In this document: positions 8,998 to 15,470 of the stretch, in pieces
Layout: each line of letters begins with the position of its first letter
How positions within the stretch are numbered: the stretch's first letter is position 1
Assembly: GCA_005223075.1 (NCBI GenBank)
Contig: NJBO01000002.1
Location: 199,588-263,587, forward strand
Length of the DNA: 64,000 bases
From: a candidate division TA06 bacterium B3_TA06
Lineage (GTDB): Bacteria > Hydrothermota > Tepidihabitantia > B3-TA06
Direction of reading: 5' to 3'
Position numbers and translations under genes: made by a program
The notes under the pieces: model-generated
The model's database searches: none
What the model was told of the DNA's origin: nothing
Seen by the model: the letters and a program-made list of their open reading frames with translations, nothing else

Positions 8998-9573
8998 TTA
9001 AAACGCACGGATTATCATCCTGGCGATCTCCTTAAGGGTCTCGAATACGCCGATTCCCTGGTCGGCAACCGCCTCGAAGTACGGCACCTTATCCGGGTTC
9101 AGGAGTTCTTCCATCTCAGCTACGGTCATGATATTCGGCAGGTCGCGCTTGTTGTACTGCATCACGTATGGGACATCGGGAAGCCTGAGGTTGAAGGTAG
9201 CAAGGTTCTCCTTCAGGTTCTCGAGACTGTCCAGGTTGTCCTCACGCCGCTCACGTTGTGAGTCAGCAACGAATATGATGCCGTCCGCACCTTCCAGGAT
9301 GATTCTCCGAGAAGCGGTGAGGGCAACATGGGTGGGAACCGTGTAGAGATGGAAGCGCATCTGGAAGCCCCGCACTCGACCCAGATCTACAGGCAGGAAG
9401 TCGAAGAACAAGGTTTTGTCCATCTCAGTATCTAAAGTGATCGTCTTTCCTTTTGCATCCGCGTCCAGCCTATCGTAGATCCAACGAAGATTGTCGGTCT
9501 TCCCGCCGAGTCCCGGCCCGTAGTATACGATCTTTAGATTGATCTCTTTTGTAGCGTAGTTTATGAGAGCCAT
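8998..9573 (-). CDS. MglA-like small GTPase, paralogue 1, catalytic residues lost
   Basis: This 191-residue protein is a Ras-like GTPase of the MglA family, which sets cell polarity and drives motility complexes in Myxococcus. The P-loop GPGLGGKT (residues 19-26) and the NKRD base-recognition motif are intact. Three active-site positions have changed: Lys53 replaces the catalytic Arg of DRTLFFDFLP, the PGQ of switch 2 has become PTH (residues 80-82, so Gln82 is lost), and Asp27 follows GKT. It should bind nucleotide but not hydrolyse GTP normally. It lies 6 nt after a 25-residue microprotein gene. Confidence 0.9.
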   Translation of the reverse strand: MALINYATKEINLKIVYYGPGLGGKTDNLRWIYDRLDADAKGKTITLDTEMDKTLFFDFLPVDLGRVRGFQMRFHLYTVPTHVALTASRRIILEGADGIIFVADSQRERREDNLDSLENLKENLATFNLRLPDVPYVMQYNKRDLPNIMTVAEMEELLNPDKVPYFEAVADQGIGVFETLKEIARMIIRAF

Positions 9574-9579
9574 GGAGTA

Positions 9580-9657
9580 CTAACCAAACAGCTGATCAAG
9601 TTCATCTTCTACATTAAACTCATCTGGGGGACTCTCTAACTTCTTGTCTGCAGGCAT
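9580..9657 (-). CDS. 25-residue microprotein 1, copy of the MglB-like C-terminus
   Basis: ATG 9657 has AAGGAGG 4 nt upstream. The peptide starts MPADKKLESPPDEF and ends VEDELDQLFG. The roadblock protein encoded at 11961-12455 ends EDELDRLFG. In the shared part, five of six changed codons are synonymous. The 6-nt gap to the GTPase start is the same as between the full roadblock gene and its mglA. This is probably a real peptide that binds the adjacent GTPase; binding is inferred from the known contact of the MglB C-terminal helix with MglA. Confidence 0.75.
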   Translation of the reverse strand: MPADKKLESPPDEFNVEDELDQLFG

Positions 9658-9684
9658 TAGTCCTCCTTGGTCTAATCTTATTGT

Positions 9685-9713
9685 AGTATAACTAATTATA
9701 GTCATTATGTCAA
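9685..9713 (-). promoter_or_regulatory. Promoter of microprotein 1 / GTPase 1
   Basis: TTGACA (9708-9713), 17-bp spacer, TATACT (9685-9690). The spacer holds the inverted repeat ACTA-N4-TAGT, shared with unit 2 and a possible operator. Confidence 0.85.
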
Positions 9714-9807
9714 GGCTTTATCATGCCCGCACATATGAAGGCTACCTTCTGGGGGCCTGAATCTCTAAATCTCGGAACGTTTCTAGGGGTTTTTAAAACT
9801 GAAGTTC

Positions 9808-10383
9808 TCATAACTTACGGATTACCATCTTGGCGATCTCCTTCAGGGTGTCGAATACACCGATTCCCTGGGTGGCAACCGCCTCGAAGTAGGGCACCCT
9901 ATCCGGGTTCAGAAGTTCCTCCATCTCGGCGACTGTCATAAGATTGGGGAGGTCGCGCTTGTTGTACTGCATGACGTATGGGACGTCTGAAAGCTTCAGG
10001 TTGGGGGTTGCAAGGTCCTCCTTGAGGTTTTTCACACTCTCCACGTTATCCTCACGCCGCTCCCTTTGTGAATCGGCCACGAAGATTAGGCCGTCGGCAC
10101 CCCTAAGGATGATTCTCCGAGAAGCGGTGAGGGAAACATGGATGGGAACCGTGTAGAGATGGAAGCGCATCTGGAAGCCCCGCACTCGACCCAGATCTAC
10201 AGGCAGGAAGTCGAAGAACAAGGTTTTGTCCATCTCAGTATCTAAGGTGATCATCTTTCCTTTTGCATCTGCGTCCAGCCTATTGTAGATCCAACGAAGA
10301 TTGTCAGTCTTGCCACCGAGTGCCGGCCCGTCGTATACGATCTTTAGGTTGATCTCTTTTGTAGCGTAGTTTATGAGAGCCAT
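9808..10383 (-). CDS. MglA-like small GTPase, paralogue 2, catalytic residues lost
   Basis: This 191-residue paralogue is very close to paralogue 1 even at the DNA level, so the two arose by recent duplication. It shares Lys53 and Asp27, and has PIH in place of PGQ (residues 80-82). Its P-loop is further altered to GPALGGKT. The NKRD motif is intact. Loss of both hydrolytic residues in an otherwise conserved frame points to a selected non-hydrolysing form rather than decay. It has its own promoter and microprotein. Confidence 0.9.
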   Translation of the reverse strand: MALINYATKEINLKIVYDGPALGGKTDNLRWIYNRLDADAKGKMITLDTEMDKTLFFDFLPVDLGRVRGFQMRFHLYTVPIHVSLTASRRIILRGADGLIFVADSQRERREDNVESVKNLKEDLATPNLKLSDVPYVMQYNKRDLPNLMTVAEMEELLNPDRVPYFEAVATQGIGVFDTLKEIAKMVIRKL

Positions 10384-10389
10384 GGAGTA

Positions 10390-10467
10390 CTAACCAAACA
10401 GCTGATCAAGTGCATCTTCTACATGAAGTTCATCTGGAGGCCTCTCTAACTTCTTGGTTACATGCAT
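10390..10467 (-). CDS. 25-residue microprotein 2
   Basis: ATG 10467 lies behind AAGGAGG (10472-10478). The peptide begins MHVTKKLERPPDEL and ends VEDALDQLFG. It has the same length, the same 6-nt gap to the GTPase and the same ending as microprotein 1, while its first half differs. Confidence 0.75.
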   Translation of the reverse strand: MHVTKKLERPPDELHVEDALDQLFG

Positions 10468-10494
10468 TAATCCTCCTTGTCTTAAACTCATTGC

Positions 10495-10523
10495 ACTATA
10501 ACTAATTGTAGTTATCATGTCAA
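10495..10523 (-). promoter_or_regulatory. Promoter of microprotein 2 / GTPase 2
   Basis: TTGACA (10518-10523), 17-bp spacer, TATAGT (10495-10500), with the ACTA-N4-TAGT inverted repeat between the boxes. Confidence 0.85.
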
Positions 10524-10551
10524 GGCTTTATCATGCCCGCAAATATGAAGG

Positions 10552-11169
10552 CTACCTTCTGGGGGCTTGAATCTCTATCCCTCGAGGCGTTTTGAAAACT
10601 TGCAGGATGACCCTCTTGGCGATCTCCTTCAGGGTCTCGGATATGCCGCTCCCCTGGGTGGCGACCGACTCGAAGTAGGGCACCCTATCCGGATTCAGGA
10701 GTTCTTCCATCTCAGCAACGGTCATCAGGTTGGGCAGGTCGCGCTTGTTGTACTGCATGACATATGGGATGTTGGAGAGTTTGAGGTTAAGGGTTGCAAG
10801 GTTGTTCTTAAGATTCTGTAGGCTGTTGGTATTGTCCTCACGCCGCTCCCTTTGTGAATCGGCCACGAAGATCAGGCCGTCGACACCACTAAGGATGATC
10901 CGCCTCGAGGCGTTATAGAAAACCTGGCCTGGAACCGTGTAGAGATGGAGGCGTACCTGAAAGCCCCGCACTCGATCCAGATTTACAGGCAGGAAGTCGA
11001 AGAACAGGGTTCTGTCCATCTCTGTATCGATACTAATCATCTTCCCCTTGGTATTCTCATCGAGTTTTCCGCAGATCCCTCTGAGGGTGGTGGTCTTACC
11101 ACCTAATCCAGGACCGTAGTATACGATCTTTACGCTGATCTCTTTTGTAGCCAAGTTTATGAAAGCCAC
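10552..11169 (-). CDS. MglA-like small GTPase, paralogue 3, active site intact
   Basis: The 205-residue protein keeps the catalytic set: P-loop GPGLGGKTT, Arg53 in DRTLFFDFLP, and PGQ in TVPGQVFYNASRR. It also has NKRD. It has a 15-residue basic C-terminal extension (KTPRGIEIQAPRR) that the other paralogues lack. The start is GTG 11169, 6 nt after microprotein 3. It should be a functional GTPase and is less similar to paralogues 1 and 2 than those are to each other. Confidence 0.9.
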   Translation of the reverse strand: MAFINLATKEISVKIVYYGPGLGGKTTTLRGICGKLDENTKGKMISIDTEMDRTLFFDFLPVNLDRVRGFQVRLHLYTVPGQVFYNASRRIILSGVDGLIFVADSQRERREDNTNSLQNLKNNLATLNLKLSNIPYVMQYNKRDLPNLMTVAEMEELLNPDRVPYFESVATQGSGISETLKEIAKRVILQVFKTPRGIEIQAPRR

Positions 11170-11175
11170 GGGGTA

Positions 11176-11253
11176 CTAACCAAACAGCTGATCAAGTGCG
11201 CCTTCTACATTAAACTCATCTGGGGGAGTCTCTGGCTTCTTTTCTCCAAGCAT
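11176..11253 (-). CDS. 25-residue microprotein 3
   Basis: ATG 11253 lies behind AAGGAAG. The peptide begins MLGEKKPETPPDEF and ends VEGALDQLFG. Exact conservation of length (25), of the PPDE and LDQLFG motifs and of the 6-nt spacing in three units supports translation. Confidence 0.72.
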   Translation of the reverse strand: MLGEKKPETPPDEFNVEGALDQLFG

Positions 11254-11281
11254 TAGTCTTCCTTAATCTTAAATTGATGTT

Positions 11282-11310
11282 AGTATAGCTAAGTATGATT
11301 ATTGTGTCAA
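11282..11310 (-). promoter_or_regulatory. Promoter of microprotein 3 / GTPase 3
   Basis: TTGACA (11305-11310), 17-bp spacer, TATACT (11282-11287). The spacer differs from units 1 and 2. Confidence 0.85.
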
Positions 11311-11335
11311 GTGTTTGCTTGCTCGTTTCAATACA

Positions 11336-11355
11336 AAGGCCCCCTACGGGGCCTT
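11336..11355 (-). terminator. Terminator of the porGDAB-roadblock-mglA operon
   Basis: An 8-bp stem AAGGCCCC/GGGGCCTT with a 4-nt loop, followed on the minus strand by TTTGTATTG. It lies just after the fourth mglA and before the promoter of unit 3. Confidence 0.8.
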
Positions 11356-11378
11356 AACTTTCTAAATCTCGAGGTGTT

Positions 11379-11954
11379 CTAGAACTTGCGGATGACCGTC
11401 TTGGCGATCTCCTTCAGGGTCTCGAATATGCCGATGCCCTGGGTGGCAACCGACTCGAAGTAAGGCACCCTCTGAGGATTTATGAGCATCTCCATCTCGG
11501 CAACGGTCATTATGTTCGGCAGATCACGTTTGTTGTACTGCATCACGTATGGTGTGTCGGAGAGCCTGAGGTTGAAGGTAGCAAGGTTATCCTTCAGATT
11601 CCGCAGGCTGTCGAGGTTATCCTCACGCCGCTCCCGCTGCGAGTCGGCCACGAAGATCAGGCCGTCGGCACCCCTAAGGATGATCCTCCGCGTGGCGTTG
11701 TAGAAGACCTGACCTGGAACCGTGTAGAGACGAAGTCGCGTCTGGAAGCCGCGCACTCGACCCAGATCTACCGGCAGGAAGTCGAAGAACAGGGTTCTGT
11801 CCATCTCTGTAGCAAGGGTGATCATCTTCCCCTTGGTATTCTGATCGAGTTCTCCGTAGATCCATCTTAGGTTGGTGGTCTTACCGCCCAGGCCCGGCCC
11901 GTAGTATACGATCTTGAAGTTGATCTCTCTGGTTGCATAGTTTATCAGAGTCAT
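11379..11954 (-). CDS. MglA-like small GTPase, paralogue 4 (operon copy, intact)
   Basis: The 191-residue protein is the canonical member of the set: P-loop GPGLGGKTTN, DRTLFFDFLP with Arg53, TVPGQVFYNATRR with Gln82, and NKRD. It is encoded 6 nt after the roadblock protein, so the pair matches the classic MglB-MglA arrangement in which the roadblock dimer acts on the GTPase. It is the last gene of the por operon. The link to pyruvate oxidation is by position only and its meaning is unclear. Confidence 0.93.
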   Translation of the reverse strand: MTLINYATREINFKIVYYGPGLGGKTTNLRWIYGELDQNTKGKMITLATEMDRTLFFDFLPVDLGRVRGFQTRLRLYTVPGQVFYNATRRIILRGADGLIFVADSQRERREDNLDSLRNLKDNLATFNLRLSDTPYVMQYNKRDLPNIMTVAEMEMLINPQRVPYFESVATQGIGIFETLKEIAKTVIRKF

Positions 11955-11960
11955 CTGGTG

Positions 11961-12455
11961 CTAGCCAAACAAACGGTCGAGTTCGTCTTCGATATCCTTT
12001 GAGATATCCTCGATCCTTGCCTCCTCCTCCGGCGCGAGCTGTTCTTGGCCGCCGAAGATATCCTCAAGTATCTTTGAAAGGGTCTGTGCGGCGTGCTTGA
12101 CCCGCACGCGGACAAGCCCCAGGGTGGTGCGTTGATCGAAGATTACAGCGATGATGATGTTCTGTGCAAGGGCCTGGAAGTAGAGGTGATCGCGTTCGCC
12201 CTGGTGGTAGAGGGTGAGGAACTGCTGCTCGCCGATGAGCTCTGCGAGTTGGGACGTGGCAGCAAAGTCAGCCGCAGCCAGGGTCGCAAACGACTCGAGA
12301 TCTATCTTCTCGGTCTCGCCAGCGTTCGTAATCAGGTTCCCGTCGCGATCCACCAGAAGAACCGCCTTGGCGTCAGACTGCTGCAGGAGCTTCTCGATGT
12401 TCTCCTTGATCGCCTGGAAACCTGACTCGAACAGCTTGATGCGATCTATAAGCAT
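11961..12455 (-). CDS. Roadblock/LC7 protein, MglB-like
   Basis: The 164-residue protein has a roadblock/LC7 fold over about residues 1-125 (LLQQSDAKAVLLVDRDGNLI, then AQNIIIAVIFDQRTTLGLVRV). A long acidic C-terminal tail ends in DIEDELDRLFG. Roadblock proteins of this type are partners and regulators of MglA GTPases. The C-terminal segment is the part reproduced in the three microproteins. It starts one base after porB and ends 6 nt before the GTPase, so all are co-transcribed. Confidence 0.9.
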   Translation of the reverse strand: MLIDRIKLFESGFQAIKENIEKLLQQSDAKAVLLVDRDGNLITNAGETEKIDLESFATLAAADFAATSQLAELIGEQQFLTLYHQGERDHLYFQALAQNIIIAVIFDQRTTLGLVRVRVKHAAQTLSKILEDIFGGQEQLAPEEEARIEDISKDIEDELDRLFG

Positions 12456-12456
12456 G

Positions 12457-13389
12457 TTATCCGTTCGTTGCCTGCTCTTTGCGCAACAGGACTTCCCACC
12501 GACGATTGACCTCGGCCTGAAGTTCCTCCAAAAGATGCTCGTTACCCGGCTTGAGTAGATGCCGGAAGCGTGCCTGTAGCTTTAGGAAATCAACCAAGGG
12601 CTTAGGCTCACGCGGCTTCATGTTGATCTTGTATTTTCCGTCCTGCCACTCGTAGATCGGCCAGAACAGGGTTTCTACAGCAAGCTTGGAGATGTTCATG
12701 GTTTGGTTTAGGGGGTAGCCCCAGCCGGGAACGCAGGGCGAGAGGACGTTGATGAACGAGGGGCCGTCAGCGGCAAGTGCCTTCTCCACCTTGCGGATGA
12801 GATCCATGTAGTAGCCGGGTGTTGCCTGTGCAGCGTAGGCAGGATCGTGAGCGATGATGATCTCGGTCAGGTCCTTTCGCTTCTGTGGCTTGCCCGGTAT
12901 CTTGGTTCCGGCAGGAGAGGTGGTGGTGTGCGCGCAGTAGGGGGTAGCTGACGAACGCTGGTAACCGGTGTTCATGTAGGCTTCGTTGTCGTAGCATACG
13001 TAAAGCATCTTGTGGCGACGTTCAATCGCTCCTGAGAGAGACTGCAGACCGATGTCGTATGTGCCGCCATCACCGCCGAAGGCGATGAATTGGATCTCGG
13101 CATCTATCTTGCCCTTGCGCTTCAGGGCTCGATAGGCCGCTTCCATACCCGATACGGTCGCAGCCGAGTTCTCGAAAGCGTTGTGCACCAGGTTGACGTT
13201 CCACGCGGTGTAGGGAAAGATGGTGGTAACCACCTCCATGCATCCGGTACAGATGCCTGTCACCGTTGGTTTGTCGCCTGCGGCCAAGAGTATCTGACGT
13301 ATGGCGGTTGAAGCCGCGCAGCCTGCACAGGCGCGATGCCCGCCTACCAGACCTTCCGTGCGCTTAGAGAGTTCTTTTAGGCTAGCCAT
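12457..13389 (-). CDS. porB: 2-oxoacid (pyruvate):ferredoxin oxidoreductase, beta subunit
   Basis: The 310-residue subunit binds thiamine pyrophosphate. It has the cysteines of the beta-subunit cluster (HRACAGCAAS and ICTGC) and the TPP segment FGGDGGTYDIGLQSLSGAIER, followed by YDNEAYMNTGYQRS. With the alpha, gamma and delta subunits it converts pyruvate and CoA to acetyl-CoA, CO2 and reduced ferredoxin. It lies one base after porA. Substrate choice (pyruvate rather than another 2-oxoacid) is inferred from overall similarity. Confidence 0.93.
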   Translation of the reverse strand: MASLKELSKRTEGLVGGHRACAGCAASTAIRQILLAAGDKPTVTGICTGCMEVVTTIFPYTAWNVNLVHNAFENSAATVSGMEAAYRALKRKGKIDAEIQFIAFGGDGGTYDIGLQSLSGAIERRHKMLYVCYDNEAYMNTGYQRSSATPYCAHTTTSPAGTKIPGKPQKRKDLTEIIIAHDPAYAAQATPGYYMDLIRKVEKALAADGPSFINVLSPCVPGWGYPLNQTMNISKLAVETLFWPIYEWQDGKYKINMKPREPKPLVDFLKLQARFRHLLKPGNEHLLEELQAEVNRRWEVLLRKEQATNG

Positions 13390-13390
13390 C

Positions 13391-14569
13391 TCATTCCTCC
13401 CCGCGAACGCCGAGGTATGTGATTAACTTATCTATCTTACCTTGCTTTGCTACTTGCTCGATCTCGTCGTAGACCCGTAGGATGTCGGAGATATCTATAT
13501 TGCGTCCACCCAGACCGTATACGTAGTCTGTGAGAAGGGGTTTTTTCTTTGCGTCGTAGAGAATACCGCGGGTCTCAAGGAAGACCGGGCCGCCGAAATC
13601 TGCCATGGTGTCGGAGCGATCCATCACCGCCACCGCCTTGAACTTACCAAGTGCGGCCTTTATCTCCTCAACGGGCAGCGGACGCCACATCCTCATGCGA
13701 ACAAGGCCCACCTTGCGGCCCTGCTCACGCAGCCCATCCACCACCTCCTTGGCGGTATCCGCGGTGGAGCCAGCGGTAAAGATCGCAACGTCGGCATCGT
13801 CGGTCTTGTACTCTTCCAAAGCAGGGTAGTAGCGCCCGGAAAGCTCGGCATACTCCTGGGCTACCTTGTTATAGGTTCCGAGTACCTTGCTGAAGTCATC
13901 GATCTGGGCGCGCTTGTGCTCGAAGAAGTAGTCCTGCAGATCAAGTGGTCCGAAGGTTTTGGGATTCTCAAGGTCCAGTGCGGAGAAGCGAGGTTTGTAT
14001 TCACCGATGAAGCGCTGAACCTCTTCGTCTTCGAGGACCTCCAACCGCTCCATGGCGTGGGAGATGATGAACGCATCGGTGGAGACGATTGCAGGAACAG
14101 CCGTTTGCTCCGCTACTTTCAGAGCGATTATTAACGAATCGTATGCCTCCTGGGAGTTGGCGCAGTAAAGCTGCATCCAGCCAGCCTCTCTGGAACCCAT
14201 GGTGTCCGAGTGGTCGCAGTGGATGTTGATTGGGGCGGAAAGTGAACGGTTCACTAATGCGATAACGATCGGCAGACGGTTGCCTGCAGCGATATAGAGG
14301 ATCTCATGCATTAATGCTAACCCCTGGGAAGAGGTTGATGTCATAACCCTGCCGCCTGCAATAGAGGCGCCCACGCAAGCCGAAAGTGCGGAGTGCTCAC
14401 TTTCCACGGCAACGAACTCGGTATCCACCTCGCCGTCGGCCACGTAGTTGGAAAAGATCTGCACGATCTCGGTCGCCGGTGTGATGGGGTACGCTGCTAC
14501 CACGTCCGGATTGATCTGCTTCATGGCATAGGCCATGGCCTCGTTACCGGTCTTGGCTATTGTCTTCAT
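13391..14569 (-). CDS. porA: 2-oxoacid (pyruvate):ferredoxin oxidoreductase, alpha subunit
   Basis: The 392-residue protein starts MKTIAKTGNEAMAYAMKQIN and shows AAYPITPATEI and the TSSQGLALMHE segment typical of the alpha subunit. A transketolase C-terminal-type domain follows (FTAGSTADTAKEVVDGLREQ). I chose ATG 14569 because GGGAGGAGAA precedes it and it overlaps the porD stop (ATGA); a longer reading would run back through porD. Confidence 0.93.
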   Translation of the reverse strand: MKTIAKTGNEAMAYAMKQINPDVVAAYPITPATEIVQIFSNYVADGEVDTEFVAVESEHSALSACVGASIAGGRVMTSTSSQGLALMHEILYIAAGNRLPIVIALVNRSLSAPINIHCDHSDTMGSREAGWMQLYCANSQEAYDSLIIALKVAEQTAVPAIVSTDAFIISHAMERLEVLEDEEVQRFIGEYKPRFSALDLENPKTFGPLDLQDYFFEHKRAQIDDFSKVLGTYNKVAQEYAELSGRYYPALEEYKTDDADVAIFTAGSTADTAKEVVDGLREQGRKVGLVRMRMWRPLPVEEIKAALGKFKAVAVMDRSDTMADFGGPVFLETRGILYDAKKKPLLTDYVYGLGGRNIDISDILRVYDEIEQVAKQGKIDKLITYLGVRGEE

Positions 14570-14868
14570 TTCTCCTCCCGCACCATATCGATAGCCGATG
14601 CCTTGGGCGGGCATATCACAGCGCAGATACCGCAGCCCTTGCAGTAGTCGTAGTCTATCCCTGTCATCTTGCCGTCTTGAACTGTGATTGCCGTATCTGG
14701 GCAGGTGATCCAGCAGAAAAGACAATGTATACACTTTTCCGCATCCCATAAAGGACGCATACTGCGCCAATCACCGGTCTTGAAGTGAAGGGAGGTTGCC
14801 CGTTCGTCTATGAGGCAGCCCGCGGGCAGCTCCTGCCAGGTCATCGGTTTATCAAACTTCATGCTCAT
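14566..14868 (-). CDS. porD: 2-oxoacid:ferredoxin oxidoreductase, delta subunit (two 4Fe-4S)
   Basis: The 100-residue ferredoxin-like subunit has two cluster motifs, CIHCLFCWITCP and CKGCGICAVICP, which wire electrons out of the complex. ATG 14868 overlaps the porG stop (ATGA) and has GGAGG upstream; a second ATG lies at 14862. The gene order G-D-A-B is normal for archaeal-type four-subunit enzymes. Confidence 0.93.
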   Translation of the reverse strand: MSMKFDKPMTWQELPAGCLIDERATSLHFKTGDWRSMRPLWDAEKCIHCLFCWITCPDTAITVQDGKMTGIDYDYCKGCGICAVICPPKASAIDMVREEK

Positions 14869-15443
14869 GCGACCTCCACCTCGTCGTAGGCGCGTTTGAT
14901 AGCTTCGACGTTTCCTTCGATGATCTCGGTGCGGCCTCGGAACTTTACTTCGAGCTTTTCCTTGATAGAGGCAAGCGCGGAGTCCCACTCCAAGGCCCCG
15001 GTTATCTTTACCATTGCACCCAGCATAACCGTGTTGGGAACGTTTTTCTTTAGGATCTCGACCGCAATCTTGGTGGCATCCACTACGGCAACCTTGGCGT
15101 TTGTTACGCGGAGTTTTTCCTTTATGGCTGCCGCCTTCTCCTGGGTATTAACTATGAGCGCACCATTGTCTTTAAGACCTTCGGTCACGTTAATCGACTC
15201 CAAAAGGCTTGCGTCAAGCACCACCACAACGTCTGGATTAATTACCTGGGTGTGGATGCGGATCGGCCCGTCTGAGAGACGGTTGAACGCCTTTACCGGC
15301 GCACCAGTGCGCTCAGGGCCGTATTCTGGGAATGCCTGAATGTATTTGCCGGTTTCCATGGCCGCTTCGCCGAACAAAAGTGCGGCGGTCTTAGCTCCCT
15401 GCCCGCCGCGGCCGTGCCAGCGGACTTCGAAGTATTGTTGCAT
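14865..15443 (-). CDS. porG: 2-oxoacid:ferredoxin oxidoreductase, gamma subunit
   Basis: The 192-residue subunit opens with FEVRWHGRGGQGAKTAA, the family signature, and contains FPEYGPERTGAPVKAFNR. The start is ATG 15443 behind GGAGGTCAC. It is the first gene of the operon porG-porD-porA-porB-roadblock-mglA. Confidence 0.93.
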   Translation of the reverse strand: MQQYFEVRWHGRGGQGAKTAALLFGEAAMETGKYIQAFPEYGPERTGAPVKAFNRLSDGPIRIHTQVINPDVVVVLDASLLESINVTEGLKDNGALIVNTQEKAAAIKEKLRVTNAKVAVVDATKIAVEILKKNVPNTVMLGAMVKITGALEWDSALASIKEKLEVKFRGRTEIIEGNVEAIKRAYDEVEVA

Positions 15444-15470
15444 GTGACCTCCGAACAAAATTGTAACAAA

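Follow-up and report, generated by a model that had tools for sequence, protein, structure and literature searches.

We analysed a window of 64,000 nucleotides (nt) from the genome of candidate division TA06 bacterium B3_TA06 (contig NJBO01000002.1, positions 199,588 to 263,587; genome of 2.4 Mb, 95.8% complete), in which three 25-codon reading frames, here called microframes, each precede a paralogue of mglA, the gene for the GTPase MglA. On balance, and with a little better than even confidence, we read the microframes as leaders that were inherited from the 3' end of mglB, the gene for the roadblock protein of the MglAB module, and that drive translation of mglA copies without a Shine-Dalgarno (SD) sequence of their own. 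A lineage-specific tandem array of mglA paralogues would have formed in which each copy retained only the 3' end of mglB, and this end would have acquired its own promoter, SD and start codon. Ribosomes would load at the microframe SD, terminate 6 nt ahead of the SD-less mglA start and reinitiate there; the main mglA behind the full mglB is probably translated likewise across the family. An mglA copied without mglB would need a frame ending at that point, and the microframe would provide one, together with a strong promoter and SD. The peptide it encodes has kept a likeness to the MglB C-terminal helix (Ct-helix) and may bind its GTPase weakly, a role that would be secondary.

The array lies on the minus strand, as do all features given below, in the order of genes resembling those for 2-oxoacid:ferredoxin oxidoreductase, mglB, main mglA, and then units 3, 2 and 1. 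MglB (11961..12455; 164 amino acids, aa; Pfam Robl_LC7, 5.9e-12) is a full roadblock protein ending EDELDRLFG, and the nearest solved structures are those of Myxococcus MglB (6h5b/6izw). The ancestral, main mglA follows 6 nt past it (11379..11954, 191 aa), lacks an SD and encodes the catalytic R53, G81 and Q82. Each unit then consists of a promoter-like site (TTGACA-17-TATAnT, with 11/12 bases matched and a 17-nt spacer), an SD and a frame of 25 codons that ends in LDQLFG, followed after a 6-nt gap by an mglA paralogue.

In unit 3 these are the promoter TTGACA-17-TATACT (11282..11310), the SD AAGGAAG (11258..11264), the microframe MLGEKKPETPPDEFNVEGALDQLFG (11176..11253), with a tail homologous to MglB 154-164, and an mglA paralogue with intact catalytic residues (10552..11169, 205 aa). 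The latter starts with GTG and runs on at its C-terminus for 14 residues beyond the usual end, into the upstream region of the next unit. Unit 2 has the promoter TTGACA-17-TATAGT (10495..10523), the SD AGGAGG (10472..10477), the microframe MHVTKKLERPPDELHVEDALDQLFG (10390..10467) and an mglA paralogue (9808..10383) whose product has lost catalytic residues (T27D, R53K, G81I, Q82H). Unit 1 is built from the promoter TTGACA-17-TATACT (9685..9713), the SD AGGAGG (9662..9667), the microframe MPADKKLESPPDEFNVEDELDQLFG (9580..9657) and an mglA paralogue (8998..9573) with a similar loss (T27D, R53K, G81T, Q82H). A first-pass annotation of this DNA had described the same unit anatomy and the same full MglB with its 6-nt gap to mglA, and we recovered every one of these features where it had placed them. 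The frame of units 1 and 2 can also be extended to ATGs 16-17 codons further upstream, within the promoter; we rejected this longer frame of 41-42 aa because its ATG falls between -35 and -10.

An SD is absent from all four mglA genes of the window and present (AGGAGG or AAGGAAG) ahead of the ATG of all three microframes. Every accessory mglA is thus preceded by an SD-bearing frame whose stop lies 6 nt before an SD-less start. Published work takes a spacing of -8 to +10 nt between genes as a predictor of termination-reinitiation, and coupling needs no more than the final 15 nt of the upstream gene (PMC10666635). The first-pass annotation had left aside the absence of an SD at every mglA copy, which gives the microframe an ordinary role as a translation leader. 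An mglA orthologue with an identical 6-nt gap to mglB was present in 7/7 other genomes of the family (8/8 overall). The leader account is more economical than one built on the peptide and is compatible with a peptide function; coupled pairs often encode partners. We rejected an RNA attenuator or conserved RNA structure, since the three leaders fold no better than shuffled sequences (z 0.14, -0.01 and 1.00) and their predicted structures differ.

A tblastn search with MglB gave a match to the tail in each of the three stretches between mglA genes (E 0.002, 0.013 and 0.07), covering the last 10-11 residues of MglB. From these matches we judge the microframe tails to be homologous to the MglB C-terminus and not chance resemblances. 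The pattern LDxLFG-stop occurs at four places in the whole 2.4-Mb genome, all within the array, and was found in no other protein of the genome. The part homologous to the MglB Ct-helix comprises the last ~9 codons. For the first 14-15 codons and the promoter, a source was sought elsewhere in the genome and in relatives, and the only matches were the three units themselves. The microframes contain no roadblock domain by Pfam and, lacking a Roadblock/LC7 domain, are not MglBs. A roadblock pseudogene upstream of them was rejected as well, as tblastn with MglB found no remnant there.

The tail belongs to a conserved motif. Coupled MglBs of this phylum and of Myxococcota end in [LI]-D-x-L-F in 57/58 distinct sequences, and in all 57 the positions -3 and -1 relative to the Leu or Ile are acidic; the linker preceding the motif is fast-evolving. 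The MglB tail EDELDRLFG is invariant in 8 family genomes, and the corresponding peptides 1-3 end EDELDQLFG, EDALDQLFG and EGALDQLFG. All three therefore have the core motif (LDQLF), and peptide 1 also has the acidic pair (E17 and E19). Peptides 2 and 3 have A19 at -1, a position where 57/57 motif-bearing MglB tails carry Asp or Glu, and from peptide 3 the acidic residue at -2 is gone too. This loss speaks against the selection on the free peptide that the first-pass annotation had proposed.

That proposal came from a comparison of microframe 1 with mglB over the last nine codons, in which five of six changed codons are synonymous. The count is right, and the conclusion is unsupported: the comparison spans the constrained mglB branch and a possible full-MglB stage and thus cannot date constraint after truncation. 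From the family mglB to the ancestor of the microframes there were about five synonymous codon changes and a single residue replacement (R to Q). Between units, the nonsynonymous and synonymous divergences (dN/dS) of the microframes were 0.155/0.149, 0.145/0.106 and 0.216/0.353, and the ratio for mglA was ~0.2. Since the units split, dN has been about equal to dS in the microframes, contrary to the proposed selection, with mglA under constraint. Changes at codon positions 1/2/3 of the microframes numbered 3/4/3, 1/6/2 and 4/6/5, with no excess at third positions. The units are also paralogues of each other with signs of gene conversion and cannot be counted as three independent cases. Over nt 150-252 of mglA, units 1 and 2 show 0/34 third-position changes, and such mosaic third-position identity between units suggests gene conversion inside the array (window 8998-11169).

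Several observations weigh against the microframes being leaders and nothing more. The LDQLFG codons show 0 changes in 18 nt across units, against 18/54 in codons 2-19 (p=0.0036); the frozen residues correspond to those that meet MglA in Myxococcus and would serve no obvious purpose in a pure leader. Units 1 and 3 differ at 9/78 positions within the microframe, compared with 41/100 upstream of it (p=1e-5). On the side of translation, a crude scan of the window found 22/53 large genes without an SD, so a missing SD alone is no proof of coupling, and reinitiation at +6 nt without an SD is a step that we infer. Set against the 36 nt immediately downstream, the LDQLFG freeze is non-significant (p=0.16), and gene conversion could explain it. 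Taken together, these substitution patterns hint at selection on the LDQLFG core and give a negative result for the remainder of the peptide.

Alternatively, the microframe product might work as a free Ct-helix whose translation keeps pace with that of its MglA and which binds the allosteric pocket formed by the beta2-beta3 loop and alpha5, a possibility that we rate as clearly less likely than the leader reading. Such a peptide would act as an activator resembling a guanine nucleotide exchange factor (GEF), or compete with MglB or another Ct-helix, uncoupling exchange from the action of the GTPase-activating protein (GAP). In Myxococcus xanthus, residues D150-D152, D154 and F157 of the MglB Ct-helix touch MglA in a pocket that includes K181, K185, L64 and I67 (PMC6785124). 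The first-pass annotation had named this contact correctly (PMC6785124, PMC11016934). There the Ct-helix is an allosteric element driving nucleotide exchange (PMC6785124, PMC11016934), and a RomR helix is able to substitute for it (PMC6785124). These properties favour a working peptide, as do the tail motif shared by 57/58 coupled MglBs, the LDQLFG block unchanged in three units and the mostly synonymous path from mglB to the microframe ancestor. Every accessory MglA also retains the pocket (L64, V67, K181, K/R185), and the beta2 Phe residues facing the roadblock are retained as well. AlphaFold predicted a helix at residues 16-24. For this we used read-through constructs, in which the stop was read as a residue solely as an in-silico tether; the GTPase folded, with the better result for the first of two constructs, and the tail, helical at a predicted local distance difference test score (pLDDT) of ~38-44, was uninformative on docking. 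This low tail score counts against a functional peptide, as do dN≈dS following the unit split, the loss of the -1 acidic residue from peptides 2 and 3 and of -2 from peptide 3, and the absence of a second instance in the phylum. In addition, the productive Ct-helix interaction in Myxococcus requires the MglB N-terminal strand (PMC11016934), which a free peptide does not have.

A more specific scenario, which we consider rather doubtful, is that duplication dismantled the GAP/GEF: the roadblock, with its GAP activity, would have been dropped, and the exchange helix kept as a free, translation-coupled allosteric ligand of 25 aa. That the peptides would then tune or compete at the MglA pocket, with two of the paired MglAs needing no GAP as their catalytic residues are gone, is to our minds similarly doubtful. 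We think it improbable that the microframes are functionless remnants of the 3' end of mglB that spread with the tandem duplication, with mglA translated independently and the frame still open only on account of a young array or of homogenisation by conversion. The occurrence of the array in a single genome, the mosaic identity between units suggestive of conversion and the near-neutral changes in the microframe would agree with this. However, promoter, SD, start, frame, length and stop are intact in all three units, although the DNA upstream of unit 3 is >40% diverged from that of units 1 and 2, and dS of 0.33-0.86 between mglA copies means that the array is not very young. Finally, read-through of the stop could yield an N-terminally extended MglA with the Ct-helix in cis, given that the stop plus 6 nt preserves the frame in all units and in the family and the tail is in frame with mglA. 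We rate this as very improbable, because the stop varies (TAA, TAG, TGA) among relatives sharing the gap, in the rest of the phylum the gap length is often not divisible by 3, and mglA retains its own ATG or GTG.

The GTPases in the array are 79-80% identical to the main copy, and accessory GTPase 1 matches Myxococcus MglA along its full length. All four copies carry the P-loop GxxxxGKT (as GGKT) and NKxD (as NKRD). The main copy and unit 3 carry R53 and the G3 motif TVPGQ. In units 1 and 2 these are replaced by K53 and TVPTH/TVPIH, and among 50 compared MglAs GQ is missing from these two only. R53 and Q82 are catalytic residues of Thermus and Myxococcus MglA (PMC6785124, PMC4316618). Units 1 and 2 share T27D, R53K and the loss of G81-Q82, changes that are older than their split, and the dN/dS ratio between their mglA genes since then is ~0.21. 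These two are likely maintained, hydrolysis-defective paralogues under purifying selection, and on sequence grounds they are MglA paralogues by homology, not by catalytic signature. Two of three tail-frame partners needing no GAP would fit a reading in which only the GEF helix was kept; unit 3, with its catalytic residues intact, does not.

No ATPase of the PilB/PilT/GspE type (PF00437) was found in the source genome, whereas 14/14 control genomes match, and the MglA here may not serve type IV pili. Four further roadblock proteins of this genome score above the Pfam cut-off (C1:183210, C3:146818, C22:24206 and C25:10765) and could be partners of the accessory MglAs. Near the roadblock gene at C3:146818 lies a frame resembling a small GTPase, MKLAKVVIVGKDEAGKSTL.

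We profiled 147 genomes of the phylum, and the array was present in only one, the source genome. Pattern and upstream surveys of these genomes found no microframe outside it, and 60 further upstream regions in the phylum held only full MglBs or unrelated genes. The conservation of frame and length in relatives that the first-pass annotation had looked to as a check is therefore lacking. Each of the four other species of the genus has a single mglA, followed directly by the same small convergent gene that bounds the array downstream, and represents the empty site. The dS between the main mglA and its nearest relative (G001) is 0.22, and that between the copies and the main gene 0.58-0.86. On this measure the copies are at least as old as the split from this relative, and to account for that one has to assume that relatives lost the array, that it was transferred from a relative outside the sampled genomes, or that it evolved fast; the trees do not decide between these.

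A class-wide second MglA family (loci L064-L082) is ~57% identical to the window MglA, and several members have Q at position 53. Its genes mostly lie behind a gene with a recJ-like C-terminus, as inferred from sequence, and not behind mglB. We rejected them as independent cases of the microframe, because they are mostly preceded by the recJ-like gene and not by a tail frame. At the other end of the array, genes like those for 2-oxoacid:ferredoxin oxidoreductase subunits, read off the sequence with no database search, occupy 12457-15458.

The locus resembles the MglAB polarity module of Myxococcus xanthus and Thermus thermophilus, in which the MglA GTPase is paired with the roadblock GAP/GEF MglB. 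It shares the MglA fold, the mglB-mglA order, the Ct-helix motif [DE]x[DE][LI]DxLF and, for the main copy and unit 3, R53 and TVPGQ. It differs in having three extra MglAs with only a 25-aa tail frame and no roadblock partner in their units, two of them without R53, G81 and Q82. Orphan MglAs such as SofG and Bdellovibrio MglA are likewise paralogues without a full MglB of their own (Wuichet and Sogaard-Andersen 2014, PMC4316618). By the rule given there (within four genes of mglB), some of the accessory MglAs would rank as coupled, and the part of that paper considered here holds no description of a tail frame ahead of each mglA. Bicistronic leader pairs working by termination-reinitiation (PMC10666635) have the same SD-bearing short frame, with a stop 6 nt before an SD-less start and a sufficient 3' end, but here the leader can be recognised as a fragment of the protein that regulates the neighbouring gene's product. 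The Glu-rich C-terminal helix of RomR (PMC6785124) is likewise an acidic helix on the MglA allosteric pocket outside a roadblock domain; it belongs to a large response regulator, in contrast to the free peptide here. In open-licence papers on MglA with roadblock proteins, microproteins or small open reading frames (ORFs), or on MglA in WOR-3 bacteria, we found no description of such units.

We conclude that the units are real and unusual, form a single case so far, and are most likely leader frames inherited from mglB with a partly eroded Ct-helix motif. In Myxococcus, the GAP part of MglB is not easily separated from its GEF part; in this genome the two seem to have come apart in evolution, with the exchange helix standing by itself ahead of GTPases that have partly lost hydrolysis. 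If the peptide acts, nature would here have supplied a minimal ligand of the allosteric pocket of MglA. If it is inactive, the array would illustrate how a mini-ORF with the look of a regulator may in fact be a translation leader derived from the 3' end of a gene, which calls for caution in microprotein annotation.

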